Shown: positions 22,332-54,338 of the stretch, one piece after another
Layout: each line of letters opens with the position of its first letter
Numbering within the stretch: position 1 is the first letter of the stretch
Source: Bacteroidetes bacterium GWF2_38_335
GTDB lineage: Bacteria; Bacteroidota; Bacteroidia; Bacteroidales; GWF2-38-335
Length of the DNA: 64,000 bases
Direction of reading: 5' to 3'
Assembly: GCA_001769535.1 (NCBI GenBank)
Contig: MEOH01000002.1
Coordinates: forward strand, 1 to 64,000
Position numbers and translations under genes: made by a program
Notes under the pieces: model-generated
The model's input: only the letters and a program-made list of their open reading frames with translations
Told to the model about the DNA's origin: nothing
Databases searched by the model: none

Positions 22332-23327
22332 TTATTTACTTAACGCTAAAATCAGATCTGAGGTTGTGAAATATATTTTTTTTTCACTTTTTTTAACTAA
22401 TTCCCAGCATATTCCTTCATTGCTGTCTTTTATCTCAATAATCAATTCAGAGCATTGATTATCAACGCAATATCCAATTCTATTAAGTGCATTTTCAGTC
22501 CACTTGCAGTACAATTCATTTCCCCTCAGCGCTACTTTGCGGGTAAATTCGCGGTTAATTACAAAATCCGCTCTTTGTTTGTCGAAAGAAATTCTGGTAT
22601 TTACAAAAAGTCTGTCGATGGTTCCGTTTAACACAAGATCTTCCGGCGCACCAATGGTCACACCGGCTTTTTCAAGAAGGATGATTCTGTCGGTTTCTTT
22701 AAGAACAATGCTCAGGTCATGGGATGAAAAAAGTACGGCTTTATTTTTCTCATGTGCCAGTTTGTGCAACAGAGCAATTACTTCGTACCTGTTTTTCAGG
22801 TCAAGGTAAGCCGAGGGTTCATCCAGAATGATCACCGGAGTATCCTGGGCAATAGCACGGGCGATCATAGCGCGTTGCCGTTCCCCATCGCTCAGTTCAT
22901 TGATAAATCTGTTGTGAAAACCTTCCAGTCCGACCAAACTAAGAGATTCCTTTACACAATCCCTGTCAAAAGTGGTTAATTTCCCATGCCAGCCGGTGTA
23001 GGGATATCTTCCCTGACTGACAAGTTCAAAAACGGTAAGGTGGTTGACCTGAATATTTTCGGTGGATACATAGGCAATTTTTTTTGCCTGTTCCGACACC
23101 GAAGTTTTCCCCAGTTCCTTCCCCGAAAGCATAATAGAGCCATTGATTGCCGGAATCAACCTGACAATGGTTTTCAATAAAGTACTTTTTCCTATCCCGT
23201 TTAATCCTAACAATGTAGTAAGTTCCCCGTTGAAAAGCGAAAAAGAGAGTCCTTCGGCAAAAATGGTTTTTCTGTGGTAGCCAATTTGCAGATCCTTAAT
23301 TTCCAGTATATTCTCTCTGCCTTCCAT
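22332..23327 (-). CDS. Iron-siderophore/cobalamin-type ABC transporter ATPase with C-terminal extension
   Basis: 331 residues. It energises the import of an iron chelate, haem or cobalamin through the permease encoded next to it. It has Walker A GLNGIGKST (about 41-49), the signature LSDGE (145-149), Walker B VIILDE (165-170) and the switch His203 (SSHD), with FecE/BtuD-like phrases such as GRYPYTGW. A usual ATPase of this family ends near residue 255. Here about 75 further residues follow (NREFTRKVALRGNELYCKW onward) with two Cys pairs or singles and an alternating strand/helix pattern, of unknown role. Its ATG shares one base with the stop of the permease gene, so the two are translationally coupled. 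Confidence 0.92.
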   Translation of the reverse strand: MEGRENILEIKDLQIGYHRKTIFAEGLSFSLFNGELTTLLGLNGIGKSTLLKTIVRLIPAINGSIMLSGKELGKTSVSEQAKKIAYVSTENIQVNHLTVFELVSQGRYPYTGWHGKLTTFDRDCVKESLSLVGLEGFHNRFINELSDGERQRAMIARAIAQDTPVIILDEPSAYLDLKNRYEVIALLHKLAHEKNKAVLFSSHDLSIVLKETDRIILLEKAGVTIGAPEDLVLNGTIDRLFVNTRISFDKQRADFVINREFTRKVALRGNELYCKWTENALNRIGYCVDNQCSELIIEIKDSNEGICWELVKKSEKKIYFTTSDLILALSK

Positions 23328-24376
23328 TAATCAAACCGGTATCTCTTAATAATAATTAAAATAACAATTGGTATTCCGAGTAATGCAGTAATCGAATTTA
23401 TGGGCAACACCACATCATACCCGGGCAAGCGTGAAATCAAATCACTGACAATCATAAAAATACCGCCAATAATTGAAGAACCGATCAGCAGCACGTACAT
23501 ATCAGCCGAACGGTAGAGTATTCTTGTAATGTGAGGAACAGCGATACCAACAAATCCAATAGGTCCGCAAAAAGCGGTAACACTTCCGGCCAGAATGCTT
23601 GTACCGGTAAAAACCAAAATCCTTGCCCATGTGATGTTTAATCCGGAAGTGCGGGCATAAGCTTCCCCAATTCTCAGCGCATTAAGAATTTTAGCAGATA
23701 TAAAAGCCAGAATGGTACCGACAACAACAGAAGGAATTAAAACATTCAACTGGGATTTTGTCACCGAACCCAAACTTCCCATTGTCCATACAACATATGA
23801 TTTGAGCATCTGCTCATTGCTAAAAAACTGCAAAATATTTACTATAGCCGAAATGGCTGATCCAAACATGATTCCAAGAATCAAAATGGTAAGAATATCC
23901 CTGACTCTCAATGAAACCATCAGTACCAGAAACAGGATCACTCCTGCCCCAATCCATGCAGCCACAACCATTGCCCAGCTTCCCAGAGCAGAAATCAGCG
24001 GAGCAGATCCAAAGCCCAGCAGTACCAGAGCAATACCCAAGCTGGCTCCCGAACTGATTCCAAGGACATATGGTCCGGCCAAAGGATTCCTGAAAATGGT
24101 CTGCATTTGTAATCCGCTCACCGAAAGCGCAACACCAGCAATAAGAGCGGTAATTACTTTTGGAAGTCTGAAATCGAGGACAATGGTTTTAAAAGTCTCT
24201 GACGAAGGATTTCCGCCAGTAAGTATTGAAATAATATCAGAAAATGGAATTTTCACAGACCCCAAAAACAAGTCAGTAATAAAGAGGATTACCAGTATTA
24301 CCAGTAATATGAATGTCAGTACGATATTTCTGTTTTTCTGCTTATTCAATTTCAGATAAAAGAACAAAAATAGCAA
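23327..24376 (-). CDS. FecCD/BtuC-type ABC transporter permease
   Basis: 349 residues with about ten membrane helices. FecCD-family signatures are visible: SVKIPFSDIISILTG, RLPKVITALIAGVALSVSG, RNPLAGPYVLGISSGASLG, GPIGFVGIAVPHITR and the C-terminal LPINSITALLGIPIVILII. It forms the transmembrane pore, usually as a homodimer, for iron-siderophore, haem or vitamin B12. It lies 10 nt after the binding-protein gene and overlaps the ATPase gene by one base. The ligand cannot be told from sequence, and no riboswitch is seen before the operon. Confidence 0.93.
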   Translation of the reverse strand: MLFLFFYLKLNKQKNRNIVLTFILLVILVILFITDLFLGSVKIPFSDIISILTGGNPSSETFKTIVLDFRLPKVITALIAGVALSVSGLQMQTIFRNPLAGPYVLGISSGASLGIALVLLGFGSAPLISALGSWAMVVAAWIGAGVILFLVLMVSLRVRDILTILILGIMFGSAISAIVNILQFFSNEQMLKSYVVWTMGSLGSVTKSQLNVLIPSVVVGTILAFISAKILNALRIGEAYARTSGLNITWARILVFTGTSILAGSVTAFCGPIGFVGIAVPHITRILYRSADMYVLLIGSSIIGGIFMIVSDLISRLPGYDVVLPINSITALLGIPIVILIIIKRYRFD

Positions 24377-24386
24377 AAATCAGCAG

Positions 24387-25553
24387 CTATCTGATCCTTT
24401 GGTAATAGAATAAATTGTGTTCAGGCAAAAGTGAAGGATGAAAAATGTGAATAAGATCTTTAAGTACCAGATGCGGGTTAACGGTTCCCGACTCCCAGTA
24501 ATCCATTCCGCCCCCTTTGGTAATTCTTTTATTGTTGTTGAAAATTTGTCCTTTTTTGAATGATTCAAAGAGATTCAGGCGTTCATCTGTTTCAATCATA
24601 TCCTCCTTTGAAGCTGACTGTCCGGGATTTATCCACACTGAAGCTTTACCAGCTTTTTTATAGATTGATTCCAGATCAAGAATGAAGCTTTCCCTGCCTG
24701 AATTTTCTTTCCAGAGATAATTGCCACCGGCATCAGCAATGAGCATGGCCTGATATGAGTTGCCTCCGGGCAGGTGCCATGCATCTTTCCATGGCATGCC
24801 AACAAGAACATCAGGTTTTTCAGCAACCGAATCTGTTAACTTTTTCAGCGAATAATATTCCTCTGTCACCAGATTAAAATAATCGCATGCTTCTTTTTCA
24901 AGGTTAAAAAAAGCAGAAAAGAATTTGATCCACTCGGCTTTAGCGAGAGGAGAATCCTCAAGATATTCACCCACAACCACAACTTTTATCCCCAGATCCT
25001 TAAGTTTATTGATGTATTTAACCGCATCACCGGAAATATTATATGCAAAAACCACATCAGGCTGCAGACTGAGAATCAATTCATAGTCAAGATCATCTTC
25101 ATAACCCACATCACGGGCATCTTTAAGGTCGGAAGAATACACAAAGCCCGAACCGGAAATACCTTTAATTGATTCTGTTTTATCAATAGCGCTAATAAAT
25201 CCAATGTGGGTGGTGGAAAGGCAAACAACGTTTTTTACAGGAATTCTGATAACCTCATCATAGCCATCCGTTTCAGGCATTGGCGCACCTCTGTTAACAA
25301 GCAGATAGCGGTAAACCACTCCTTTTGATTTTTGCCATGGATTGAAAACACTCAATGATTTGTAATTATTGCTGTATTCAATGTCAAAGCCAACCGATTC
25401 CGAGATTTTTGTAGATACAATAGAAGAATCAAAATCAGGAATAATTTCTCCATCAGATTCAGCTTTTCTGTTTTCGCTGAAGCAGGATGCCAAAAAGAGA
25501 ATAAGAAGAAAAAAGTTAATTTTTAATAGCCTGGTAAAACTCAGCACTTTCAA
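24387..25553 (-). CDS. ABC transporter substrate-binding lipoprotein (FepB/BtuF-like)
   Basis: About 388 residues if started at TTG 25553 (a GTG at 25547 is equally possible). A far-upstream ATG at 25622 would add 23 residues that run antiparallel to no known domain and precede the signal. The hydrophobic segment ends in LFLASC, a lipobox. The binding fold has VIRIPVKNVVCLSTTHIGFI, then LDYELILSLQPDVVFAYN and VVVVGEYLEDSPLAKAEWIKFF, typical of TroA/FepB/BtuF-type proteins. The gene begins inside the last codons of the giant repeat gene (38-nt overlap), which implies translational coupling. It delivers the ligand to the adjacent permease and ATPase. Confidence 0.88.
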   Translation of the reverse strand: MKVLSFTRLLKINFFLLILFLASCFSENRKAESDGEIIPDFDSSIVSTKISESVGFDIEYSNNYKSLSVFNPWQKSKGVVYRYLLVNRGAPMPETDGYDEVIRIPVKNVVCLSTTHIGFISAIDKTESIKGISGSGFVYSSDLKDARDVGYEDDLDYELILSLQPDVVFAYNISGDAVKYINKLKDLGIKVVVVGEYLEDSPLAKAEWIKFFSAFFNLEKEACDYFNLVTEEYYSLKKLTDSVAEKPDVLVGMPWKDAWHLPGGNSYQAMLIADAGGNYLWKENSGRESFILDLESIYKKAGKASVWINPGQSASKEDMIETDERLNLFESFKKGQIFNNNKRITKGGGMDYWESGTVNPHLVLKDLIHIFHPSLLPEHNLFYYQRIR

Positions 25554-28500
25554 TGTTTTTATCGTTTTTATAGTATGCGACACCTCCCCATGACTGAGTA
25601 ACCTCCCTGTATTCATTGGCAATACCGCTTCTCACAACAATATATCTTTTGATCTTTTTTGTTCTCATTTCATAATCCTCTCGGGTCACGCCTTCCGGAT
25701 ACCTGGTAGCCAAGTCTTTAAGGTATTTATTTCTATCTTCGTCACTGGCAAAAATAAGATCCTTAAGCTGTTTACTTTCCTCAATAGCCTTATCACACTC
25801 AGCAATTTTCGTTTTTGGATATTGTTCATCAGGTTTAATGCCCAAAGCGGCAGTGTATTCTTTTTTAGCAGCTTCCCATTTACCTGATCCAAAAAATCCA
25901 TCCCCACGGGCAATAGCATCTTTATAATTCTGTTCTTTCTGCTTTTCTGCAGCAGCCTGATCAAGAATAGCAGTAATTTGTCCGAGTTTCTGTTTTGGAT
26001 ATTGTTCATCAGGTTTTATTCTGACAGCTTTAGAAAAGCTTCCTTTGGCTTCTTCGTATTTCTTGGCGTTAAAAGAGGCATCCCCTGCTTTGATAAGTTC
26101 GGCATATTCCTTATCGGCAAGTGCCTGATTTGCTTTTTTGGCAATGATGTCATCAATTTCCCTGATTCTGTTTTTCGGATATGCTTCATCAGGCTTTACC
26201 AAAGAAGCTTTATTGTATTCGGCTTTTGCCTCGTTCAGTTTATCGGTATCATAAAACCCATCGGCCTTGGCAATAGCGTCATTGTATTGCTTATCCTTTT
26301 CTGCGGTTGCTTTGGCATCTGCAAGCAGTTTATCAATTTCTGCAATCCTGTTTTTAGGGTGCAATTCTGCAGGTTTAAGAGCAAGAGCTTTGTTGTATTC
26401 TGTTTTAGCTTCAGCATATTTCTTTTCTGTAAAAAGAGCATCCGCAGCAAGAATTGCATCACTAAATGCTTTTTCTTTATCGGCGGCGCTTTTCGCATCA
26501 GCAATCAGCTTGTCAATTTCTGCAATTTTTGTTTTAGGATATTGTTCCGTTGATTTAATCGCCAATGCAGCGTTATAGCCTGTTTTGGCCTCATCATATT
26601 TCTTTGCATTGAATGAAGCATCAGCTTTGGCAATGGCATCATTGTATGCCTTATCCTTTTCAGCAGCAACTTTTTGATCGGCGATCAGTTTGTCAATTTC
26701 AGCAATTTTGGTTTTCGGGTACTGTTCATTTGCTTTAATTGCCAGAGCAGCGTTATAGCCCGACTTAGCCTCTTCGTATTTTTTTGCACTAAGCGATGCA
26801 TCAGCTTTTGAAATCGCATCCTGATAGGCTTTATCTTTTTCGGCAGCAGCCATTTGATCGGCAAGGATTTTGTCAATCTCTGCAATTTTTGTTTTCGGAT
26901 ATTGTTCCGTCGACTTTATGGCAAGAGCTGAGTTGTAGCTGGATTTAGCTTCCTCATATTTCTTTGAATTGAATGAGGCATCAGCTTTGGCAATGGCATC
27001 ATTGTATGCTTTTTCCTTATCAGCCGCAGCTTTTTGATCAGCTAAAATCTTATCAATTTCAGCTATTTTTGTTTTCGGGTATTGTTCGTCAGCTTTAATA
27101 GCAGTGGCTTTATTGTATTCGGTTTTTGCCTCGGAATATTTCTGAGTACCAAAGAACCCATCAGCTTTGGCAATGGCATCATTATATGCTTTTTCCTTTT
27201 CGGCAGCTGATTTTTGATCGGCCAGAATTTTATCAATCTCAGCTATTTTTGTTTTAGGATATTGCTCAGTCGACTTTATAGCAAGAGCTGCGTTGTAGCC
27301 TGATTTGGCTTCATCGTATTTCTTTGCATTTAATGAGGCATCAGCTTTGGCAATGGCGTCCTGATAGGCTTTATCTTTTTCTGCTGCAGCAAGCTGGTCG
27401 GCAAGAATTTTATCAATTTCCGCAATCTTTGTTTTCGGATATTGTTCAGTCGACTTTATAGCCAGAGCAGAGTTGTAGCCTGATTTTGCTTCATCGTATT
27501 TTTTAGCACTAAGTGAAGCATCGGCTTTTGAAATTGCATCCTGATATGCCTTATCTTTTTCGGCAGCAGCCATTTGATCGGCAAGGATTTTATCGATCTC
27601 TGCGATTTTTGTTTTAGGATATTGCTCTGTGGATTTTATAGCCAGAGCTGAGTTGTAGCCGGATTTAGCTTCCTCATATTTCTTAGAGTTAAATGAAGCA
27701 TCAGCTTTGGCAATTGCATCCTGATAAGCCTTATCTTTTTCGGCGGCAGCTTTTTGGTCGGCCAGAATTTTATCAATCTCCGCTATTTTTGTTTTAGGAT
27801 ATTCCTCGGTTGATTTAATTGCAAGCGCAGAATTGTAGGATGATTTTGCCTCGTCATATTTTTTCGAGGCTAAAGATGCATCAGCTTTGGCGATGGCATC
27901 TTTGTATGCTTTATCTTTTTCGGCAGCGGCCATTTGATCGGCCAGAATTTTTTCAATTTCGGCGATCTTAGTTTTTGGATATTGCTCAGTCGACTTTATA
28001 GCAAGAGCTGCGTTGTAGCCTGTTTTGGCTTCATCGTATTTCTTTGCATTTAACGAAGCATCAGCTTTGGCGACGGCGTCCTGATAGGCTTTATCTTTTT
28101 CTGCGGCAGCAAGCTGGTCGGCCAGAATTTTGTCAATTTCGGCAATCTTTGTTTTCGGATATTGTTCAGTCGACTTAATAGCCAGAGCTGAGTTGTAGCC
28201 TGATTTGGCTTCATCGTATTTTTTAGCACTAAGTGAGGCATCAGCTTTTGAAATTGCATCCTGATAGGCTTTATCTTTTTCGGCTGCGGCCATTTGATCG
28301 GCAAGAATTTTATCGATTTCTGCGATTTTGGTTTTAGGATATTGCTCTGTGGATTTTATTGAAAGGGCTGAGTTGTAGCCTGATTTGGCTTCGTCATATT
28401 TCTTAGAGTTAAAAGAAGCATCGGCTTTGGCAATCGCGTCCTGATAAGCCTTATCCTTTTCTGCTGCAGCTTTTTGGTCAGCTAATATTTTATCAATCTC

Positions 28501-31119
28501 GGCAATTTTTGTTTTCGGATATTCCTCGGTTGATTTAATAGCAAGTGCAGAATTGTAGGATGATTTTGCCTCGTCATATTTTTTCGAGGCCAAAGATGCA
28601 TCAGCTTTGGCGATGGCATCATTGTATGCCTTATCTTTTTCGGCAGCGGCCATTTGATCAGCCAGAATTTTTTCAATTTCGGCGATCTTAGTTTTTGGAT
28701 ATTGCTCCGTCGATTTAATTGCAAGAGCTGCGTTGTAGCCTGATTTGGCTTCATCGTATTTCTTTGCATTTAATGAAGCATCAGCTTTGGCGATGGCGTC
28801 CTGATAGGCTTTATCTTTTTCTGCTGCGGCAAGTTGGTCGGCCAGAATTTTATCAATTTCCGCAATCTTTGTTTTCGGATATTGCTCAGTTGACTTTATA
28901 GCCAGAGCAGAGTTATAGCCGGATTTGGCTTCATCGTATTTTTTAGCATTAAGTGAAGCATCAGCTTTGGCTATGGCATCCTGATATGCCTTATCTTTTT
29001 CGGCAGCAGCCATTTGATCGGCAAGGATTTTATCGATCTCTGCGATTTTGGTTTTAGGATATTGTTCAGTCGACTTTATAGCCAGAGCTGAATTGTAGCC
29101 TGATTTGGCTTCATCGTATTTTTTAGCACTAAGTGAAGCATCAGCTTTGGCAATTGCATCCTGATAAGCCTTATCTTTTTCTGCTGCAGCCAGCTGGTCG
29201 GCCAGAATTTTATCAATCTCTGCAATTTTTGTTTTGGGATATTGTTCTGTGGATTTAATTGAAAGAGCTGAGTTGTAGCCTGATTTTGCCTCTTCGTATT
29301 TTTTAGCATTTAATGAAGCATCAGCTTTGGCAATGGCATCCTGATAGGCTTTATCTTTTTCGGCAGCAGCTTTCTGGTCGGCTAAAATTTTATCAATTTC
29401 GGCGATTTTAGTTTTGGGATATTCTTCATTTGATTTAAAAGAAAGCGCTGAGTTATAACTTGTTTTAGCTTCCTCGTATTTTTTCAGATTAAAAGAAGCA
29501 TCAGCTTTGGCAATGGCATCAGCATAAGCTTTTTCCTTATCGGCATTTGCTTTTTGATCGGCAAGGATTTTATCGATTTCTGATATTTTGGTTTTCGGAT
29601 ATTGTTCGGCAGGTTTCATGCCGGCAGCTTTATTGTACTCAGCTTTTGCTTCGGTATATTTTTGTGTATTAAACAAACCATCAGCGGCAGCAATCTGGTC
29701 CTGATAAGCTTTTTCCTTATCGGCGGCAGTTTTCTGGTCAGCCAGAAGTTTATCAATTTCTGCGATTTTGGTTTTCGGGTATTGCTCGGTGGGTTTGGTA
29801 TTAGAAGCATCAGTATATTTTGCTTTAGCTTCGGCTAATTTTTTTTCAGCCAAGAGGGCATCGGCAGCAGCAATTCTTTCTTTATATAATTGGTCTCTGT
29901 CGCTTTCAGCCTGCGCCTGTGCCAGTCTCCTGTCAATTTCAGCAATTCTGTCTGCCGGATATTTTTCCGCAGGTTTCATACCCAAAGCAAGGGTATATTG
30001 ATTTTTTGCTTCAGGATAATTGGTTGCAGTGAAAAACCCATCTCCTTTGGCAATAGCATCCTTATATGCTTTTTCCTTTTCAGCAAGAGCTTTCTGATCG
30101 CCCAGAAGTTTATCAATTTCGGCAATTTTCCCAATGGGATAAGCTTCATTTGGTTTTATTTTCAGAGCCGTTTCATATTCGGATTTAGCAGAAATATAAA
30201 CTTTCTTCTCCATATAAGAATCGCCTCTTGCAATGGCATTTTTATAATCCTGCTCTTTTTTTGCAGCTTCGTCGGCTGCATTTTTATTTTTAAGAATATT
30301 ATCAATTTCTGCAATCCTGTTTTTTGGATATGCTTCATTGGGTTTCAGTGCAAGGGCATCCTGATAGTCGGCTTTAGCCTCTTCGTATGCCTGATCTGCA
30401 AAAAAATCGTCTCCTGAAGCTATCAGGTCGTCATAGTTTCCTTCGTTCTTGCCTTGCTGAATCAACATTTTTTCGCACAGGTCAATCCTGATATCGGGGT
30501 ATTCAGGAAACGGATCAACATCAATAGCTTTTTCGTAAATTTTTATAGCTTCCTCATATTTTTTTTCTTTATAGAGGTCATCTGCCTGCTTAATAATTCT
30601 GTCATACTCAGTCTTTTTCAACTGTTTATGCTGGGCCATGATTTTATCAATCTGCGATTTCATTGAATTGGTATATGCCTCATCAAACTGGAAATCACCG
30701 GCGCCCTGAGAAAATTTTATTACTGTAACGGGCTGACTGAGCGCAGAAACATCCAATCCGTCCATCATATCAAAAAGTTCAATTGTAAAGGGATAAGACC
30801 AAACATATTGTTTTTCGGTGACAGCTGTTTCAAACTTAACTTTTTTGGTCACAAAATTTGCCTTTGAAAACTCAAGTATATAGGTTTTATCCAGATCCAG
30901 TTTGACCTCAAATTTTCCTTGGGCATCAGAAGTAGTAGATTTAACTACAGAACCATTTTCGAAAACTGTAATTTTTGCACCGGGAATATTATCGCGTTCC
31001 TGTTTAATTTTACCTTTAATTTCAACATAACCTCCCTGTTGTGAAAATGCAACAATGGAAAAAGCAATTAATATTACCGTAATCAACGGTTTATATAATG
31101 AATAATAGAATGGTCGCAT
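25516..31119 (-). CDS. Giant secreted protein with 27 TPR-like 60-residue repeats
   Basis: 1867 residues from the ATG at 31119 (MRPFYYSLYKPL); a TTG 24 nt upstream is less likely. A signal peptide (about 1-27, ending IVAFSQ) is followed by a carboxypeptidase-regulatory-like beta-domain (about 28-100, IKGKIKQERDNIPGAKITVFENG) and a linker. Then 1620 residues (170-1789) make exactly 27 units of 60, each resembling KAYQDAIAKADASL then KKYDEAK and EQYPKTKIAEIDKIL. Each is a TPR-like helical pair plus a third helix. The last 78 residues are a conserved cap: YPEGVTREDYE, IKRYIVVRSG and WGGVAYYKN. No T9SS sorting domain. The role is probably a long periplasmic or surface scaffold; the ABC genes downstream suggest a link to nutrient uptake, but this is inference. 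Confidence 0.88.
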   Translation of the reverse strand: MRPFYYSLYKPLITVILIAFSIVAFSQQGGYVEIKGKIKQERDNIPGAKITVFENGSVVKSTTSDAQGKFEVKLDLDKTYILEFSKANFVTKKVKFETAVTEKQYVWSYPFTIELFDMMDGLDVSALSQPVTVIKFSQGAGDFQFDEAYTNSMKSQIDKIMAQHKQLKKTEYDRIIKQADDLYKEKKYEEAIKIYEKAIDVDPFPEYPDIRIDLCEKMLIQQGKNEGNYDDLIASGDDFFADQAYEEAKADYQDALALKPNEAYPKNRIAEIDNILKNKNAADEAAKKEQDYKNAIARGDSYMEKKVYISAKSEYETALKIKPNEAYPIGKIAEIDKLLGDQKALAEKEKAYKDAIAKGDGFFTATNYPEAKNQYTLALGMKPAEKYPADRIAEIDRRLAQAQAESDRDQLYKERIAAADALLAEKKLAEAKAKYTDASNTKPTEQYPKTKIAEIDKLLADQKTAADKEKAYQDQIAAADGLFNTQKYTEAKAEYNKAAGMKPAEQYPKTKISEIDKILADQKANADKEKAYADAIAKADASFNLKKYEEAKTSYNSALSFKSNEEYPKTKIAEIDKILADQKAAAEKDKAYQDAIAKADASLNAKKYEEAKSGYNSALSIKSTEQYPKTKIAEIDKILADQLAAAEKDKAYQDAIAKADASLSAKKYDEAKSGYNSALAIKSTEQYPKTKIAEIDKILADQMAAAEKDKAYQDAIAKADASLNAKKYDEAKSGYNSALAIKSTEQYPKTKIAEIDKILADQLAAAEKDKAYQDAIAKADASLNAKKYDEAKSGYNAALAIKSTEQYPKTKIAEIEKILADQMAAAEKDKAYNDAIAKADASLASKKYDEAKSSYNSALAIKSTEEYPKTKIAEIDKILADQKAAAEKDKAYQDAIAKADASFNSKKYDEAKSGYNSALSIKSTEQYPKTKIAEIDKILADQMAAAEKDKAYQDAISKADASLSAKKYDEAKSGYNSALAIKSTEQYPKTKIAEIDKILADQLAAAEKDKAYQDAVAKADASLNAKKYDEAKTGYNAALAIKSTEQYPKTKIAEIEKILADQMAAAEKDKAYKDAIAKADASLASKKYDEAKSSYNSALAIKSTEEYPKTKIAEIDKILADQKAAAEKDKAYQDAIAKADASFNSKKYEEAKSGYNSALAIKSTEQYPKTKIAEIDKILADQMAAAEKDKAYQDAISKADASLSAKKYDEAKSGYNSALAIKSTEQYPKTKIAEIDKILADQLAAAEKDKAYQDAIAKADASLNAKKYDEAKSGYNAALAIKSTEQYPKTKIAEIDKILADQKSAAEKEKAYNDAIAKADGFFGTQKYSEAKTEYNKATAIKADEQYPKTKIAEIDKILADQKAAADKEKAYNDAIAKADASFNSKKYEEAKSSYNSALAIKSTEQYPKTKIAEIDKILADQMAAAEKDKAYQDAISKADASLSAKKYEEAKSGYNAALAIKANEQYPKTKIAEIDKLIADQKVAAEKDKAYNDAIAKADASFNAKKYDEAKTGYNAALAIKSTEQYPKTKIAEIDKLIADAKSAADKEKAFSDAILAADALFTEKKYAEAKTEYNKALALKPAELHPKNRIAEIDKLLADAKATAEKDKQYNDAIAKADGFYDTDKLNEAKAEYNKASLVKPDEAYPKNRIREIDDIIAKKANQALADKEYAELIKAGDASFNAKKYEEAKGSFSKAVRIKPDEQYPKQKLGQITAILDQAAAEKQKEQNYKDAIARGDGFFGSGKWEAAKKEYTAALGIKPDEQYPKTKIAECDKAIEESKQLKDLIFASDEDRNKYLKDLATRYPEGVTREDYEMRTKKIKRYIVVRSGIANEYREVTQSWGGVAYYKNDKNIESAEFYQAIKN
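25753..30612 (-). repeat. 4,860-bp array of 27 x 180-bp coding repeats
   Basis: The array length is exactly 27 x 180 bp. Units near both ends are divergent. Units 7-23 are much closer to each other. Two tandem 720-bp blocks, 28093-28812 (units 11-14) and 27373-28092 (units 15-18), match unit for unit in their distinctive residues (EKILADQM, then SLASKK, SFNSKK and AISKADASLSAKK). Confidence 0.92.
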
Positions 31120-31231
31120 TAAGTTTTTCTTTTGATAAACCAAATATTGTGCCTAATTTATTAATTAGCAAATATAAAAAATTTAAGTCAAATAATAAAT
31201 GACTGAATCAGGTTATTTTGATCAAAACAAA

Positions 31232-31279: not shown

Positions 31280-31729
31280 CTATTCTTTGACTTCTTCTGC
31301 AGGTTTTTCTTCAATTTCTGCACTTTCTTCACTTTCTTCACTTTTTTCATCAAAATTAAGCAAGTCCATTTTCTGAAGCAAGTTATACCAAACAATAACT
31401 TTTTTAATATCAGAAACATACACCTTTTCCCTATCATATTCCGGAAGAATTGCTTCAAAATATGCTTTCAAGTTATCGGAAGATGATTTTGGATCAACAG
31501 CCAGTCCTTTATTTTCTTTTTCAGCAATTCTTTTAAACACTTCTTTTAACGCCACCTCTTCGCTTTCAGTATAAATAGCTATATCTTCGAGCGCACTAAC
31601 CTTTGAAGTTGTGTATGCAGGAATTCTCTTTTTAGTTTCAAGCGATTCAACGATAATCCCGTTTTTTGTTTGTGAAACCATCTTAAACAAACCCGGTTGT
31701 CCTGCAATTGATAAAATATCTTTAAGCAT
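31280..31729 (-). CDS. DUF5606 family protein
   Basis: 149 residues. The N-terminal part (MLKDILSIAGQPGLFKMVSQTKNGIIVESLETKKR) matches the conserved start of DUF5606 proteins of Bacteroidota, with small SH3-like strands. The middle is helical (VALKEVFKRIAEKEN, LKAYFEAILPEYDREKVY) and the C-terminus is a highly acidic tail of Glu and Ser repeats. No enzymatic motif; cytoplasmic. It is downstream of coaE by 119 nt and has a possible -7 box TATTTTTG at 31753-31760, so it may be transcribed on its own. Function unknown. Confidence 0.85.
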   Translation of the reverse strand: MLKDILSIAGQPGLFKMVSQTKNGIIVESLETKKRIPAYTTSKVSALEDIAIYTESEEVALKEVFKRIAEKENKGLAVDPKSSSDNLKAYFEAILPEYDREKVYVSDIKKVIVWYNLLQKMDLLNFDEKSEESEESAEIEEKPAEEVKE

Positions 31730-36833: not shown

Positions 36834-39800
36834 TTACCTTACAACAGATATTTTTCTCACAAAATTATGTCCATTGATGTTCAGATTTATAAAGTACATT
36901 CCTTCGGCATTTCCTGACATATCAAGTTCATAAGGATTCTGATTGTTTTCTGTTGGTTTTACCTCTATTTTTCTTCCTGTCATATCAAATACTTCAATAT
37001 TAAATTGATTAACTTCAATACTTCCTAAATCAATATTAAGCATGTTATTTACAGGGTTGGGGAATAAAGTTATCTGTGAATTCTCAATATCAATTGTTTC
37101 AATTCCCACAAGACAACCGGTTACCTTAATCATCAGTGATGTATGTACATCAAAGATGTCTGTTGCTGTGGTCCATGCACCATCCTTTTTGCAAAACAAA
37201 GTATTGATTCCTGAAGGTCCACGATCTGAAGCCATATATGTTGCAAAAGTATCGGCTGTGGCATAGGAAATCTCAAATCCCACAAAAAACTCTCCGTCAA
37301 CAGGAACCGGAGTATCAAAATTCACAATATTAAATAATCCGGCTGAAAGACTTGAAAGATTTACCTGTTTGGTAGCTATAATTTCGCCCGGTTCATCTTC
37401 GCCTTCCCAAACAATAAATTTTACTTTACTGGTTGATGCATAGGATTTAGCAACCGGAATGATAAATGAACTTACATCAGTAAAAGTATAATTTACACAT
37501 TTATCGGCATAAGCTGTAACAAATTTACCATTATGGCCGGGTAAATACCCCCAGGTTGTTGAAAGTTGACGGAAAAGTATTGACTCCCCATTTACATTGC
37601 AAATGGTATCGCAAAGCATGTCCATGGGAAAATCTGACACAACGATGTAATCTGTTTTTGTAAGAGAACCTGTTCCTTCGCTATTGGTTGCAGTCAGTGT
37701 TACCTGATACATACCGGGACTTGAATAAGTAATACCCATTGGATGTTGTAAAGCTGAAGTTGCTGGTGATCCGCCTTCAAAGGACCATGACCATGAAGTT
37801 GGATAATCGGCTGACAAGTCAAAGAAATTAATGCTGGTACCTGCGACTATAAGTCTTTCATTAGCAGTAAAATCAATATCAGGTGGTGCAGTTATGCTGG
37901 TATCGGCCAAAACATGGATGTAATCAACTTTTGTAAGGGTATCATTACCCAATCCGTTTGCCACGGCCAGTTTCACAGTATAATCTCCGGGTGTACTGTA
38001 AGTAATAGCTGGAGGCGTTTGTCCGTCAAAGAAAAGGACATCAGCTCCTTCGAAAGTCCAGTTCCATGAAGTAGGTGCATTTAGAGAAAGGTCAGTAAAA
38101 TTCACCGAACCGCCAATCATGATATTGGTGTAATCAGCAGTAAAGTCGGCAATCGGTGGATCTGTTGTTTCGACAACCTGTATGTAACCGGTTTTTGTTG
38201 TTGAATGAGTGTCTGTTCCATCGCCAACAGTCAGGGTAACATCATATAAACCAATAGTCATGTATTGAATATTGAGGGGGTTTTGATCTGTTGAAGTTCC
38301 GGTAACCGCACCGTCAAAAGTCCAGTCCCATGAAGTAACCGCACCGTTTGACATATCAGTAAAATCGACAGACTGTCCAACCAATACCACCAGTGGGTTT
38401 CCAACAAAGTCAGCATAAAGTTCATCAGCAGAAATCACATGAATATAAGCAGCTTTTGTTTCGGCATCTGTATTGGTTCCATTAGAAACAGTAAGTTTCA
38501 CCTGATAATCACCCCATGAATTATACTGAATTCCGGCTGGATTTTGAGTGGTATTGGTAGCAGGAGTTCCTCCTGTAAATTCCCATGACCATGAAGTAAT
38601 TGTTCCTTCGCAGGTTGAAAGATCGGTAAAATCTACAGTACCACCTTCAACAACTGTTAGGGGATCGCCTTCAAACTGTGCAATAATTGGTCCGGCTTCA
38701 ATAACCTCAACCGTTCCGATATAAGGTGCTCTGAATTGTTTAGTAACAACAAGATCAAGTGCATCAGTAGTTGCGAGTGCGGTAAAATTAAGTGTAACAG
38801 AAGAACCTGTACCTGAAAACTCAGAGTCAAGCAGTACTCCGCCTTTTGAAATGGCAACAAGTGCATGATCCTCGGTTGTAACTGTTAGAGAGGTTGCTCC
38901 AACTTCAAGTGGTGCTGAGAAAGTACAGATTACATCGTCGGGAACGCCCATATAAGACATAATTGAAGGATCTCCCATAAGGTGATAAATTTCCCAGTAA
39001 TAGTCTTTCATTCCGTCACCTGCTTGTTCAACAGCAAGATTTCCACCCATAATCATCATAGAATTGGTAATGAACCATTCATCTTCGCCTTCGGAGTGAT
39101 CGTGGAACAATCTGTCATATGCACCAAGCTTGGTTGCGTTGTATGTTGGAGGGGGATCAGCCTGCAAAGTTTTATTTCCTGTTCCCCAATGGTAGTCTTC
39201 AGTCCAGTATGAAAAGTTCGATCCTCCGATATAGCCAATTGCACCTGCACCGGATTTTCTTAAAACAGCTTCTCCGAAGCATTCGCTATCATAAAAAGTA
39301 GCTGACTGACAGCAGTTTCCAATCATCAATCCAAATTTACTTGTATTTGTCATTCCGGGAACATCTGATGTTTCAAATGATGGATTTGCCCAACCTGCCG
39401 AGCTGCAATGTGCAGTATAGTTAGCTAAGCAAGTACCAAGATTGAAGTCGCTTCTGATGGCTGCTTCACTGGCAGGGGCATCTGATACAGGGTATAAATA
39501 TTCATAAATTGCAATTCCATGGGCACTGTTAAAATAATTTTCCATTCCATACTGCAACTGTCCGTTTCCATTAACACTTGAAAAGCCGTTTGGATCGCCG
39601 CCTTCCTGGTCAACACCGGCAACCATTAGTGCATGTCCGAGGTATGAAGGATCGGGCATTTCGTAACGTTCATACATTAAGCTTTTATCAATCTGTGGCT
39701 GAAGTTGCGTTGTATTGGTTGCCGACCATCTGCCATAATAGATTTCGGGAAGGAAATCATCGGTATATTCACAATAATACAGGTCAGTTTTATGAGAACT

Positions 39801-40775
39801 GGTTGTTCCGTCAAAAGTCGGGATCTGTGCAACATCACCAACAAAAAGAACAAAAGTTGGAGCAGGATCCGAAGTTGTTCCGGCATCATATAAGTCTTGA
39901 AGATAATTTTTAATAGTCGTAGTGGTTGAACCAACTGCAGCTTCATCAGTATAAGCTTCAATAACATGGAAACCCTTCATAGTTTTCCACTCAATGTATG
40001 GCTGAAGAATAGTTTCAAACATCGGGTCGGCAACAATCACCATTTTAATTGGGTAAGCGGAAATATCATCTTTTGAAAAATTATCTGAAAAATTAATCAA
40101 CCGGCTGTACGTATTTTCAAAATATGGGTTATACAATCTTTCCTTTTCTTGCTTGGTTAGCTGATAATCTGCATTTTCAAAACTTACTTCAACGGTAATA
40201 TCTGTGTAAATTTTCAATTGGTTGGTAACAGGATTGTACTGTACCGGAGCAATATCAAGCCGCCCAATTTGCACACCTCTAAGTTTACCTGAAACCTCAA
40301 CTTTCACAGCCGGATACTTGGAAAAAGCATTTTTTGTGTAGGTGGCTTCATCCTTCATAAACTCGGAAAAGTCATAATCATGGCTCTTTGAAATACTTGG
40401 TTGTGCTGGGTATAAAGGATATGTAATTCCATAATCGGACAGATTAATAATTACTTCGTTGTAACTGACAACTGTAGTTTTAATCTCTGCATTATAAGGA
40501 ATTTCAATAAGATTCCTGACAACCGGCAGTTCTGGTTTGCCATAATCATGTGTGGTTGAATAATCGTCCATTTTAAACCGGACAAACTGGCCCTTCACAT
40601 TCGAAACAGACTGAAATTGGATATCAGACAGGACATTGGTCACCGTGAAACGGTAATCGGATTTTTCATTCAAAGAAAAGTGATTTGACTCTGAAGGTAA
40701 AAGTTTAATTGCCTGCTGACCAAAGGAAAATTGAATAACCAATAGGATCAACGTAAGTAAAGTAAGTTTTTTCAT
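36834..40775 (-). CDS. Gingipain-like C25 cysteine peptidase with PKD domains, T9SS cargo
   Basis: 1313 residues from the ATG at 40775 (MKKLTLLTLILLV). In order: signal peptide (1-20), an N-terminal propeptide-like region (about 20-230), then the caspase-fold peptidase domain (about 235-620). The catalytic His is near H456 (NYTAHCSSAGW) and the Cys near C488 (MIGNCCQSATF). An Ig-like strand domain follows, then four PKD domains, each ending around (T)SWxWxFEG and the TYSxPGxYxVxLTxxN phrase (about 710-1060). A C-terminal lectin- or jelly-roll-like domain with GEFFVGFEISYA is followed by the type A sorting domain (LFPNPVNNMLNIDLG, GMYFINLN, RKISVVR). It is exported by the T9SS and likely degrades extracellular protein. 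Whether it cleaves after Arg or Lys cannot be told. Confidence 0.93.
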   Translation of the reverse strand: MKKLTLLTLILLVIQFSFGQQAIKLLPSESNHFSLNEKSDYRFTVTNVLSDIQFQSVSNVKGQFVRFKMDDYSTTHDYGKPELPVVRNLIEIPYNAEIKTTVVSYNEVIINLSDYGITYPLYPAQPSISKSHDYDFSEFMKDEATYTKNAFSKYPAVKVEVSGKLRGVQIGRLDIAPVQYNPVTNQLKIYTDITVEVSFENADYQLTKQEKERLYNPYFENTYSRLINFSDNFSKDDISAYPIKMVIVADPMFETILQPYIEWKTMKGFHVIEAYTDEAAVGSTTTTIKNYLQDLYDAGTTSDPAPTFVLFVGDVAQIPTFDGTTSSHKTDLYYCEYTDDFLPEIYYGRWSATNTTQLQPQIDKSLMYERYEMPDPSYLGHALMVAGVDQEGGDPNGFSSVNGNGQLQYGMENYFNSAHGIAIYEYLYPVSDAPASEAAIRSDFNLGTCLANYTAHCSSAGWANPSFETSDVPGMTNTSKFGLMIGNCCQSATFYDSECFGEAVLRKSGAGAIGYIGGSNFSYWTEDYHWGTGNKTLQADPPPTYNATKLGAYDRLFHDHSEGEDEWFITNSMMIMGGNLAVEQAGDGMKDYYWEIYHLMGDPSIMSYMGVPDDVICTFSAPLEVGATSLTVTTEDHALVAISKGGVLLDSEFSGTGSSVTLNFTALATTDALDLVVTKQFRAPYIGTVEVIEAGPIIAQFEGDPLTVVEGGTVDFTDLSTCEGTITSWSWEFTGGTPATNTTQNPAGIQYNSWGDYQVKLTVSNGTNTDAETKAAYIHVISADELYADFVGNPLVVLVGQSVDFTDMSNGAVTSWDWTFDGAVTGTSTDQNPLNIQYMTIGLYDVTLTVGDGTDTHSTTKTGYIQVVETTDPPIADFTADYTNIMIGGSVNFTDLSLNAPTSWNWTFEGADVLFFDGQTPPAITYSTPGDYTVKLAVANGLGNDTLTKVDYIHVLADTSITAPPDIDFTANERLIVAGTSINFFDLSADYPTSWSWSFEGGSPATSALQHPMGITYSSPGMYQVTLTATNSEGTGSLTKTDYIVVSDFPMDMLCDTICNVNGESILFRQLSTTWGYLPGHNGKFVTAYADKCVNYTFTDVSSFIIPVAKSYASTSKVKFIVWEGEDEPGEIIATKQVNLSSLSAGLFNIVNFDTPVPVDGEFFVGFEISYATADTFATYMASDRGPSGINTLFCKKDGAWTTATDIFDVHTSLMIKVTGCLVGIETIDIENSQITLFPNPVNNMLNIDLGSIEVNQFNIEVFDMTGRKIEVKPTENNQNPYELDMSGNAEGMYFINLNINGHNFVRKISVVR

Positions 40776-40887
40776 AATAGATGAATTTTTCACATTAATT
40801 AAACACAGACGAATTTTCAGAATATAAAGTTGCCTTTATTATTATTATTTGACGAATAAAACTACATATTTTTTAGTGCATATAAAA

Positions 40888-40937: not shown

Positions 40938-42842
40938 TTACTTTGCTAAAGTAATTCTTTTGATAATTCTATCAGTATTAGTTTGTATTTCAACAACATA
41001 AATACCATCTGCAAGATTCGAAATATCAACCAGCAGCTTGTTATTAACAGTGATTGTTGAAATATTTGTAATCAACCTTCCAAAAGTGTCATAAATACTA
41101 ATTTGTGTCACCGGATTATGTGACTCAACAAAAAACCTGTTGGAGGTGGGATTTGGATATGTTTTCACTGAGATTCCTTCAACTTCGGGAACATCTACCC
41201 CACCAACTGTAATATAATCAACTTTCAGTTCGGTATCGGTTTGACCAACAGATGTGACCATAAGCTGTACATCATAAACACCTGCTGTATTATAAGTAAC
41301 TGTTTTATTTGCAACTACAGAAGAACTTGGTGTGCCGCCTTCAAAGTCCCAATCATATGATTTTGTTGGAAAAGTCCATGACAGATTTGTAAAATTTACC
41401 TGAGCACCCACAGCAATACTGGTAACGTCTGCAATAAAATCAGCAGTAACAACCGGAGCAGGACAATATTTTCCATCAAGAACTGTCAATCCTGAGTCAT
41501 CGGGGTCGAGCCATGGCTTAAGTCTTTTATTGTCTGCTGTTCCGTTTGACAGCCAATGATAAGAAAACTTTCCGTAATAATCGGGTTGTGAGGGAGATGT
41601 GCAGAATGACCCTCCACCGGTAAGCGTTCCATTTACCCGTCCGTTTAAATCAAACAAAGGTGAACCGGAAGACCCGCCTTCGGTAACTCCATGATCTGTA
41701 GCAGTGGAGGCCCAGACGACACGCCAGTGGGTATTGGGAATACCAGTCCATGTTGATGAAACCAGATTTGAGGAGTAAGTTGATATTTTCTTAATATCAC
41801 CAGCCGGGTGGTGAATTGAAACACCTGAGGAACTGGTGGAATTAACGTTATTCCATCCATTGTAATAAATATTCCAATCAACTGGTATCAGGTAATTTAA
41901 TTTAACCAAAAAGAAATCAGAACCTGAAGACTGTGATCCGTATGAAACCAGTTTACATCCTGTAGACAAATCGTATGAGGGTTCTGATGCTGGACTGGTG
42001 CAATCGGCTGCTTCGTAATTAAAATAAAACCTCCATGCCTGAAAATCAGCTTCAGTGGCACCCGGACCGCAATGGTTGGCGGTTAGGAAATAAGGAATAC
42101 AGTCGCCACGGCCATTGTTAACCATTGTACCGGAACACCATCCATATGAATCGCCGTCTTTGGTTAGTAAACGGGCAACACCCTGTTTTCTGTCCTGATG
42201 ATTGGCACCCTCAGGACAATTAATATTAACTTCACATGATTCAGAATCGCCAAATTCCTTAACACCATAAAGAAATCCAACTTCCCTGTATGCGTAGGCA
42301 ACTTCTGATATTACAAGAACAGGCTTTTCGGATGTCATTGGCGACTCAACATACTCAAGTGTCACAGCATCTCCCTTTACAAGGTCGTTCACATATACCT
42401 TTGCCGAAGGATTATTCATGTAATCCATGTGGAGGATCTTTTTACCCGCCTCGTCGTACATAAAAAGTTCTGAACCAAAAGGAAGATAAAAATCCGAAAA
42501 ATAAACACCCAGGGCTTTTGCATCCCGGCAGATTATTTTTAATCGCCATATTTTATCACCGTTTTCAGCATAAGTCCATTCTCCTGAATTTTCCATATCC
42601 AGGTCTGCATAAACAGAACGGGCAATAACATGCATCTGACCGTTTTTTTCATTTTCATCGTCCAGAATTTTTATCTGACTCATGTCGGGTTTAGGCAATT
42701 CCACAACATCAATGGCATTAATTGACGGGTTGGAAAAGCTTGGTGGAATTTTAACAGTGTTTCTCTGTGAATTAACTGACATACTTGCAATTATAAATAA
42801 AATGATCAGCATGGCAGTGTTGAATAATGTTCTGTTTTTCAT
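40938..42842 (-). CDS. Trypsin-fold serine peptidase with PKD domain, T9SS cargo
   Basis: 634 residues. The signal peptide (1-25) leads a pro-region with a beta-sandwich look (YADLDMENSGEW, LGVYFSDFYLPFGSELFM, about 70-190). The peptidase domain has the triad H257 (LTANHCG), D309 (GSDFFLVKLN) and S392 (GGSSGSP), with several Cys (C202, C209, C236, C248, C258, C281, C296) suggesting disulfides. This combination resembles lysyl endopeptidase (Achromobacter protease I type). One PKD domain (about 470-550) and a type A sorting domain (KTYPNPTSNRFFVES, ISIYDTFGRLI, GIYVVEIQ, KRITLAK) follow. Exported by the T9SS; extracellular proteolysis. Upstream of and in the same direction as the C25 peptidase, but separated from it by a hairpin. 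Confidence 0.93.
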   Translation of the reverse strand: MKNRTLFNTAMLIILFIIASMSVNSQRNTVKIPPSFSNPSINAIDVVELPKPDMSQIKILDDENEKNGQMHVIARSVYADLDMENSGEWTYAENGDKIWRLKIICRDAKALGVYFSDFYLPFGSELFMYDEAGKKILHMDYMNNPSAKVYVNDLVKGDAVTLEYVESPMTSEKPVLVISEVAYAYREVGFLYGVKEFGDSESCEVNINCPEGANHQDRKQGVARLLTKDGDSYGWCSGTMVNNGRGDCIPYFLTANHCGPGATEADFQAWRFYFNYEAADCTSPASEPSYDLSTGCKLVSYGSQSSGSDFFLVKLNYLIPVDWNIYYNGWNNVNSTSSSGVSIHHPAGDIKKISTYSSNLVSSTWTGIPNTHWRVVWASTATDHGVTEGGSSGSPLFDLNGRVNGTLTGGGSFCTSPSQPDYYGKFSYHWLSNGTADNKRLKPWLDPDDSGLTVLDGKYCPAPVVTADFIADVTSIAVGAQVNFTNLSWTFPTKSYDWDFEGGTPSSSVVANKTVTYNTAGVYDVQLMVTSVGQTDTELKVDYITVGGVDVPEVEGISVKTYPNPTSNRFFVESHNPVTQISIYDTFGRLITNISTITVNNKLLVDISNLADGIYVVEIQTNTDRIIKRITLAK

Positions 42843-52307: not shown

Positions 52308-54338
52308 ATGAAACTCAAAATTACCTTTTACCTGATCATTCTGCAGGTTATCTTTCTTGCTTCTGCTTTTGGGCAGACCAAAGGATTTACTGACGCTGAC
52401 CGTTCGGCTTACATCCTTGATATTATTAAGAAAACAACCTGGAGCAATATTTCTCAGATCAGTGAATTTAAAATCACCGTTATTGAACCCGACAGTTCTC
52501 TTTATGAAGCCATAAAAGCTGAAGCCGCCAAAAGAGGAGCTATTTTCGGGAAGCCGATTAAAATTATTGGAATCAAAAACCTTGATCAGCTTACCGAAAC
52601 GCAGGTTTTGTTTTTCAACAAACGTGAGTCGAATGTAGATATTTATATGGCGCACAATAAGGTAAAAGGTAAAAATACTCTGATGCTCACTGAAAATTAT
52701 GAGTACCATTCATCCATGATAAACTTCATCGTTGATCCAAAAGGAATCAAAAGATATGAAATAAACGAGAAAAAAATTGAAGCCGAAGGGTTTGTATTGC
52801 CGACACTTTTTATCGGAGGCGCGGTAAAAAGTCAGACCGACTGGGAAGCTTTGTATGAAAACACAGAAAAACTGCTTGAAGCCGAGAAACAGATTGTTGA
52901 TGAGCAAAATAAAAAGATCGCTGCCCAACTTGAAGAAATCAAAAAACAAACTGAGAGAATAGAGATTCAGAAAAAGGAAATTGAAATCCAGCAACAGGAA
53001 ATCGACAAACAAAAAAGAGAACTTGACAGGCTTATTAAGGATGTTAATTTCAAGCAAAAGGAATTGCAGGCTAAATCTGCAGAAATTGCGGCTAAAACAG
53101 CAGAACTTATTGAGAAAACCAGACTACTTGATGTACAAAAAGCAGAAATAAAAAAACAAGAAGAATATCTTGTCGAACAAAAGAAAGCCATTGTTGAGCA
53201 GGAAGACAGAATTAAAGAACAAAAGTCTGAACTCAGCGACCTGGTTGATAAAGTAAATATGCAAAATCTGATTATTTATCTTTTCGCATTCATTATTCTG
53301 GTTGTTGTTTTCCTTGGATATTTTATCTACAGAAGCTACAAAATCAAAAAACGCGCAAACAAACTGCTTGCTGAAAAGAATGATGAAATCATGCAGCAAA
53401 ATGAAGAAATAAAACAGCAAAAAGAAGAAATTGAAACACAAAGAGATGAGATACAGAAGGAAAAAGAAATTGTTGAAGAACAACGTGATATGATTCATGA
53501 GCAAAAAGAAGAAATCCTTTCAAGTATTGTTTATGCACAACGAATTCAAAGAGCCATTCTGCCTCCCGAAGATTATATCGGAAGGAAACTCCAGTCGTAT
53601 TTTATTCTCAATAAACCCAGAGATATTGTCAGCGGTGACTATTATTGGTTTACTGAAATAAACGATACTTTGATTGTTGCTGCTGCCGACTGTACAGGTC
53701 ACGGCGTACCTGGTGCATTTATGAGTATGCTTGGTGTTGCATTCCTCAATGAAATTGTCGGTAACAACCATGATCTGAAAGCCAATGAAATATTGAATAA
53801 ACTCAGGGAGCATGTAATCAGGTCGCTCAGACAAACAGGAAAAAGCGGTGAAGCAAAAGACGGTATGGACATTGCGTTGGTAAAGTTTAATGAAAAGGAT
53901 AGAAAACTGCAATTTGCCGGAGCAAATAACCCTATTTATGTAATCAAACAAAAGGGGAAAGAAATGCCTGTCAATGACAATATGCTCGAAGGCGAAACCC
54001 ATGTCCTGTTTGAAATAAAAGCTGATAAAATGCCTATTGGTATTTATGGTGAAGAAATGGTTTCCTTTACAAACAACGAAATTCAGCTTGGCGACGGAGA
54101 TTCATTTTATCTGTTCTCTGACGGATATGCTGATCAGTTTGGTGGACCAAAAAGCAAAAAACTTAAATATAAGACATTTAAGGAAATCCTCCTTTCAAGT
54201 CAGAATGGTTCAATGAGCGAACAGGAAAAGTTGCTTGACAAAACCATTGAAGACTGGAAAGCTTATCCCAATGTTGCTGAAGGAAAAGAGCATCATGAAC
54301 AGATTGATGATATTCTTGTGATTGGAGTCAGACTATAG
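52308..54338 (+). CDS. YfiR domain-coiled coil-PP2C (SpoIIE-type) phosphatase
   Basis: 676 residues. Signal peptide (1-22), a periplasmic YfiR/DUF4154 domain (about 28-175, SAYILDIIKKTTWSN, VLFFNKRESN, GFVLPTLFIGGAV), a long coiled coil (180-315, KKEIEIQQQEIDKQ), one membrane helix (321-342), a second coiled coil (345-403), then a cytoplasmic PP2C/SpoIIE Ser/Thr phosphatase domain (about 405-676). The metal-binding Asp residues are in SGDYYW (D444) and AADCTGHG (D461), with GMDIALVKF and YLFSDGYADQFGG further on. It would carry a periplasmic signal to a phosphoprotein, probably an anti-sigma-antagonist pathway or stress response; the partner is unknown. The next gene follows by 33 nt. Confidence 0.9.
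   Translation: MKLKITFYLIILQVIFLASAFGQTKGFTDADRSAYILDIIKKTTWSNISQISEFKITVIEPDSSLYEAIKAEAAKRGAIFGKPIKIIGIKNLDQLTETQVLFFNKRESNVDIYMAHNKVKGKNTLMLTENYEYHSSMINFIVDPKGIKRYEINEKKIEAEGFVLPTLFIGGAVKSQTDWEALYENTEKLLEAEKQIVDEQNKKIAAQLEEIKKQTERIEIQKKEIEIQQQEIDKQKRELDRLIKDVNFKQKELQAKSAEIAAKTAELIEKTRLLDVQKAEIKKQEEYLVEQKKAIVEQEDRIKEQKSELSDLVDKVNMQNLIIYLFAFIILVVVFLGYFIYRSYKIKKRANKLLAEKNDEIMQQNEEIKQQKEEIETQRDEIQKEKEIVEEQRDMIHEQKEEILSSIVYAQRIQRAILPPEDYIGRKLQSYFILNKPRDIVSGDYYWFTEINDTLIVAAADCTGHGVPGAFMSMLGVAFLNEIVGNNHDLKANEILNKLREHVIRSLRQTGKSGEAKDGMDIALVKFNEKDRKLQFAGANNPIYVIKQKGKEMPVNDNMLEGETHVLFEIKADKMPIGIYGEEMVSFTNNEIQLGDGDSFYLFSDGYADQFGGPKSKKLKYKTFKEILLSSQNGSMSEQEKLLDKTIEDWKAYPNVAEGKEHHEQIDDILVIGVRL

Follow-up and report, generated by a model that had tools for sequence, protein, structure and literature searches.

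A 27-unit, block-duplicated coding array in an apparently undescribed family of TPR-derived proteins predicted to form rods

Spectrin-type repeats are units of approximately 106 residues with three long helices, in which an uninterrupted helix passes from one module to the next to give a rod. The Periscope Proteins form stalks on the cell surface from folded modules that are nearly identical, and the module number varies between strains, most where repeat identity is highest (PMC8201768). In TP0470, an exported tetratricopeptide repeat (TPR) protein of Treponema, a coding tandem repeat of predicted helical structure is variable (PMC9531955). The gene described here lies in the uncultured Bacteroidetes bacterium GWF2_38_335 (order Bacteroidales; assembly GCA_001769535.1), within the first 64,000 nucleotides of contig MEOH01000002.1, the whole of which is hereafter called the window, and encodes a protein whose middle part is an array of 27 TPR-like units, first pointed out in an earlier note made from the letters of this DNA. 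The repeat expansion is real, and takes place in a TPR-derived rod family that is apparently undescribed, no paper on it having been found in literature searches.

Compared with TPR proteins in general, the array has the TPR_2 motif (PF07719, 114.9 bits against a cut-off of 27, E 2.7e-34) and the local fold (approximately 2 Å over 52–60 residues in the predicted model), but its unit contains 60 instead of 34 residues, and the predicted third helix enters the next unit, so that the modules would be strung along a spine without superhelix stacking. With the Periscope Proteins it shares highly similar tandem modules, a predicted rod, and a unit number differing between genomes; those proteins, however, are surface-anchored and their strain variation was established by long reads (PMC8201768), whereas the present array is known from species-level counts of 4–27 and its protein has a signal peptide, no sorting tail having been found. 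In TP0470, the part that varies is an 8-residue repeat forming a plain helix after the TPR domain (PMC9531955), whereas here the TPR modules themselves are repeated. The likeness to spectrin-type repeats would reside in three-helix modules joined via an uninterrupted helix into a rod, the shared helix of the array being taken from the predicted model; the unit length differs, and no spectrin family match was found in Pfam.

The array and its four-unit blocks

25516..31143, minus strand: open reading frame of the repeat protein, 1875 residues counted from a TTG codon
25753..30612, minus strand: 27 TPR-like units in tandem, the first two of 57 and 63 residues and all others of 60, from Tandem Repeats Finder, YP spacing, Pfam and the fold model of units 11–18
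28093..28812, minus strand: block copy 1, units 11–14 (93.1% DNA identity to copy 2; synonymous divergence, dS, 0.37)
27373..28092, minus strand: block copy 2, units 15–18, from DNA comparison with copy 1
27193..29172, minus strand: units 9–19, the stretch in four-unit (720-bp) phase, from synonymous and third-position identity

The array covers 4860 bp, that is, 27 × 180 bp in frame, and corresponds to residues 178–1797 of the reading frame. Spacings between the YP anchors along it are 57, 63, and every later one 60 residues; Tandem Repeats Finder returns periods of 180 bp (score 3182) and 360 bp (score 3520), and units 8–19 are 83–100% identical to one another in protein sequence. Coordinates and YP spacings thus agree with the previously noted total of exactly 27 × 60 residues with first units of 57 and 63. 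The exactness itself is an accident of 57 + 63 = 120, and a functional meaning for it is ruled out by the relatives, which also open with 57 + 63/64. An assembly artefact, with a wrong unit number or block order, is very improbable; such arrays do cause difficulty in assembly, as in several relatives with contigs that break off or contain Ns within the array, but the present array is continuous within one contig of a 29-contig genome with its frame open throughout, and its collapse during assembly is unlikely because no exact internal repeat exceeds 74 bp.

Units 11–14 and 15–18 had been proposed to stem from a duplication of four units, superimposed on an earlier amplification of single units. 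The paired units are 96% (11/15), 92% (12/16), 91% (13/17) and 94% (14/18) identical in DNA. At codons for identical residues, synonymous identity is 69.6% at an offset of four units, 66.3% at eight and 53–58% at other offsets, and among shuffled unit orders only 0.02% attain the value observed at offset 4 (p = 0.0002, for the maximum over offsets 2–8); third-position identity likewise is 67% at offset 4, 62% at offset 8, and 49–53% elsewhere. The synonymous-site comparison had been named beforehand as the test able to overturn the proposal, and it places the two blocks closer to each other than units at other offsets, so that the 720-bp duplication and its place over an older amplification are both upheld. 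Unit 19, suspected of opening a third block, indeed belongs to the phase (90% identical to unit 15 and 89% to unit 11), and units 9–10 match units 17–18 at 92%; the phase comprises units 9–19, about 2.75 blocks, and is broken at unit 20.

Between the two block copies, dS is 0.37 and non-synonymous divergence (dN) is 0.009, these and the following values being rough Nei–Gojobori estimates, and gene conversion would give the blocks a younger look. On the same scale, dS is 0.94 for the array gene between two congeneric relatives (G089 and G190) and 1.87 for the neighbouring DUF5606 gene between the window and its one congener. The duplication, which had been called recent, is therefore younger than the divergence of congeneric species, but at dS 0.37 not very recent; it is lineage-specific, though not very young. 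Because dN is 0.009 against a dS of 0.37, the block proteins are more alike than the age of the duplication implies, and strong purifying selection, in addition to age, accounts for their near-identity. We suppose that the middle of the array grew in this lineage by unequal recombination, single units first and four-unit blocks later, and that purifying selection would have kept the encoded unit almost constant.

Family members and their unit lengths

Family searches covered 295 genomes of the order, of which 60 gave a match to the N-terminal domain and 44 to the C-terminal domain. Intact-frame relatives have from 4 to about 23 units, and the 27 of the window is the highest number seen. Contigs of seven relatives (L066, L069, L070, L071, L073, L078 and L072) end or carry N runs within the array, and because such breaks fall inside arrays, unit counts from draft genomes are often too low. 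In G180, the homologue (L053:6701–9749) is read in two overlapping frames near the array start, owing to a frameshift or an assembly error.

The median identity of unit pairs is 27–38% in most relatives, 60% in the window and 48–52% in G010 and G224; the units are thus homogenised in the latter three genomes and divergent in most others. In a tree of units, the first units of four genomes are orthologous to one another (support 100/99) and the central units group largely by genome; most inner branches among the 60-residue units are unresolved. The congeneric G089 and G190 are colinear in 17/17 units, and G228 and G019, from different genera, over the first 8 units only. From these two comparisons and the homogenisation in few genomes, array growth is episodic, and the array in the window is a lineage-specific expansion in an otherwise fairly stable family; since every unit of G089 has its counterpart in G190, length variability should not be assumed family-wide. 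In the nearest congener, G001, a query with the N-terminal domain at 1e-6 did not find the array gene; the neighbouring binding-protein gene is also absent there, and the DUF5606 gene was found. For block amplification in a coding array under strong purifying selection, the locus is a clear natural example, with stable relatives as controls.

Unit lengths were taken from 150 spacings in 16 proteins that possess the N- as well as the C-terminal domain. As many as 131 fall on 53, 57, 60, 64, 67 or 71 residues, with peaks at 57 (n = 45), 60 (n = 36), 64 (n = 46) and 67 (n = 3). Counted once per protein and length, 30/46 lie on this grid (binomial p 1e-4 against 6/16), a value to be read as a guide only, since the grid was picked post hoc, the proteins are related and most of the 60s come from two genomes. 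A D or N residue stands 27 residues ahead of the next YP in 140/150 units, the hairpin part being constant; because this distance is fixed, the change in length is located in the connecting helix, to which whole helical turns are predicted to be added. TPR expansion is common, recombination adds and removes units in repeat arrays, and the unit number differs in most relatives, all of which would suit a TPR protein of the usual kind, with neutral drift in its repeat number and a length of no particular importance. We regard this explanation as unlikely in view of the strong constraint on the unit sequence, the quantised unit lengths and the stable order in the congeneric pair.

Predicted fold, end domains and role of the protein

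With the window sequence and the loci L043 and L044 as inputs, two AlphaFold2 models were obtained. Units 11–18 (18 alignment rows, all from the window) were modeled with a mean predicted local distance difference test score of 91 as alternating helices of 39 and 14 residues. In the model of full-length L044, a relative, a beta domain at the N-terminus precedes the helix pattern seen in units 11–18, and a low-confidence C-terminal alpha/beta domain follows; the connecting helices mostly have 36, 40 or 42–43 residues, corresponding to unit lengths of 57, 61 and 64. Single predicted modules fit TPR structures at 1.3–2.2 Å over 52–60 residues (7vop_Y, 1.8 Å over 52 residues; 5lyp, 2.2 Å over 60), whereas no known structure fits the whole model, the template-modeling (TM) score by query length being no higher than 0.13 among the top 50 matches, at root-mean-square deviations of 55–87 Å. 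Matches by VIA-align were dominated by long helices with large deviations and were used for local fits only.

According to these models, each unit is predicted to be one TPR-like three-helix module, in which a TPR hairpin is followed by a third helix that runs on unbroken (39 residues) as the first helix of the following module. Because of this uninterrupted helix, the array would be a rod and not a TPR superhelix; the unit lengths of 57, 60 and 63 residues and the helices of 39 and 14 residues also depart from a superhelix of 34-residue units, within the limits set by a predicted TM score (pTM) of 0.34. The chained 39-residue helices would form the spine of the rod, rising approximately 36 Å per unit to a length of at most about 97 nm, an upper estimate that assumes a straight rod and a 36-Å step. 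Should the predicted fold hold, the architecture is a simple one, with the number of units and the helical turns fixing the length of the rod, and would be of use in protein design and in the study of envelope rulers.

31042..31119, minus strand: Sec signal peptide, MRPFYYSLYKPLITVILIAFSIVAFS then QQ, without a lipobox cysteine (sequence, read by eye)
30829..31020, minus strand: N-terminal Ig-like CarboxypepD_reg domain (Pfam PF13620, 36 bits, cut-off 32.3)
25519..25752, minus strand: conserved C-terminal domain of about 78 residues (YPEGxT...SWGG...YFRNG), from sequence conservation

The ATG at 31119, which opens the signal peptide, is the likelier start and is favoured over the TTG. Leaders similar to this signal peptide were recognized by eye in 16 relatives, and we infer that the protein is exported and located in the envelope. 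PF13620 matches the N-terminal domain in 12/17 family members, and its beta strands appear in the L044 model. The C-terminal domain, predicted there with low confidence to consist of helices and beta hairpins, has no Pfam family, matches being confined to single members; an identity with PARN was dismissed, as the matches to PDB entries are weak and probably due to chance. A type IX secretion system (T9SS) sorting domain (Por_Secre_tail) gave no match in the array protein with Pfam and NCBIfam at E 0.1, nor in 19 C-terminal domains of the family at 0.05.

The array appears to be exchangeable. In the homologue of Bacteroidetes bacterium GWA2_32_17 (L043:1-1041), Ala/Lys-rich helical repeats replace part of it. 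A paralogue of 286 residues in the same genome, outside the window (G000:C2, approximately 112.0–112.9 kb; L011:865-1722), consists of a signal peptide, one TPR, a P/E/K-rich linker and the same C-terminal domain, and has an orthologue-like counterpart of 279 residues in the congener G001 (L009). With an Ala/Lys helix in place of part of the array in the one and a P/E/K linker in the other, these two proteins are what chiefly speaks for a spacer role. The Ala/Lys-rich repeats of L043 resemble TolA rods.

The most likely role of the array protein is that of an exported spacer or scaffold of variable length, and we consider it on balance probable that an Ig-like N-terminal domain and a small conserved C-terminal domain are separated by a 27-module rod, the middle of which grew by recombination. 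The modules would set the distance between the two end domains, and might in addition present many identical docking faces. Several points weigh against this interpretation. At pTM values of 0.34 and 0.30, the models do not define how neighbouring modules are angled, or how straight or curved the rod would be, and the alignment for the window model was built from its own repeats, which could inflate its confidence. A rod of 97 nm would be too long to span the periplasm and would have to bend, lie flat or leave the cell; neither a surface anchor nor a T9SS sorting tail was found in the array protein; the gene neighbourhood described below is shared by no more than a minority of relatives; and the extreme identity of the units could serve binding just as well as spacing.

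TPR motifs usually bind peptides, and in a multivalent binding scaffold each TPR-like hairpin would bind the same short peptide or envelope protein, many identical units raising the avidity. The nearly constant protein sequence of the central units (dN 0.009, dS 0.37) speaks for such a scaffold, as a mere spacer needs less, but the units of most relatives are only 27–38% identical (median) and part of the array can be swapped for a plain helix in L043 or for the P/E/K linker in the paralogue; we therefore judge this scaffold somewhat unlikely. A Periscope-type surface protein, in which a strain-variable unit number tunes the projection of an end domain from the cell, would be in keeping with the near-identical tandem modules, the rod-like prediction, the 4–27 units between species and a possible length exceeding the width of the periplasm; with G089 and G190 colinear in 17/17 units at dS 0.94, a longest exact repeat of 74 bp, and no surface anchor or T9SS tail found, it seems quite unlikely.

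Gene neighbourhood

24387..25622, minus strand: periplasmic binding protein of an ATP-binding cassette (ABC) importer (Peripla_BP_2), downstream neighbour, likewise in 6 relatives
23327..24376, minus strand: FecCD-type permease
22332..23327, minus strand: ABC ATPase of the FecCD-type importer
36834..40793, minus strand: C25 peptidase with PKD domains and a T9SS sorting domain (context)
40938..42842, minus strand: trypsin-like protease with PKD and a T9SS sorting domain (context)

The binding-protein gene directly follows the array gene in the window as in the six relatives, and in eight relatives the gene immediately upstream of the array gene belongs to a T9SS-cargo cluster; among five of these upstream genes examined, a T9SS sorting tail was present in 5/5 and a trypsin-like domain in 4/5. 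In the window, the two T9SS-tailed proteases are located approximately 6–12 kb upstream. Gene order thus suggests a link of the array protein to the ABC importer and the T9SS proteases, and an envelope role connected with nutrient capture is no more than suggested. A tie of the family to the presence of T9SS was considered and set aside as non-discriminating, SprA being present in 276/295 genomes and in 44/44 carriers of the C-terminal domain (Fisher p = 0.09). It is conceivable, and put forward tentatively, that the protein represents an undescribed class of bacterial rod, with single TPR modules on a continuous helical spine, a unit length in whole turns that keeps the angle between neighbours, a C-terminal domain that has no name, and a connection with the FecCD importer and T9SS proteases, reaching nearly 100 nm here via block duplication.

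Elsewhere in the window (52308–54335), a SpoIIE-type phosphatase with a YfiR/HmsC-like (DUF4154) domain is similar over 300–430 residues to long TPR proteins of relatives that carry the N-terminal domain of the array protein. A 9-bp tandem repeat of 4.9 copies (31306–31349), situated in the tail of the DUF5606/DUF6852 gene, encodes an acidic Glu/Lys-rich C-terminus.
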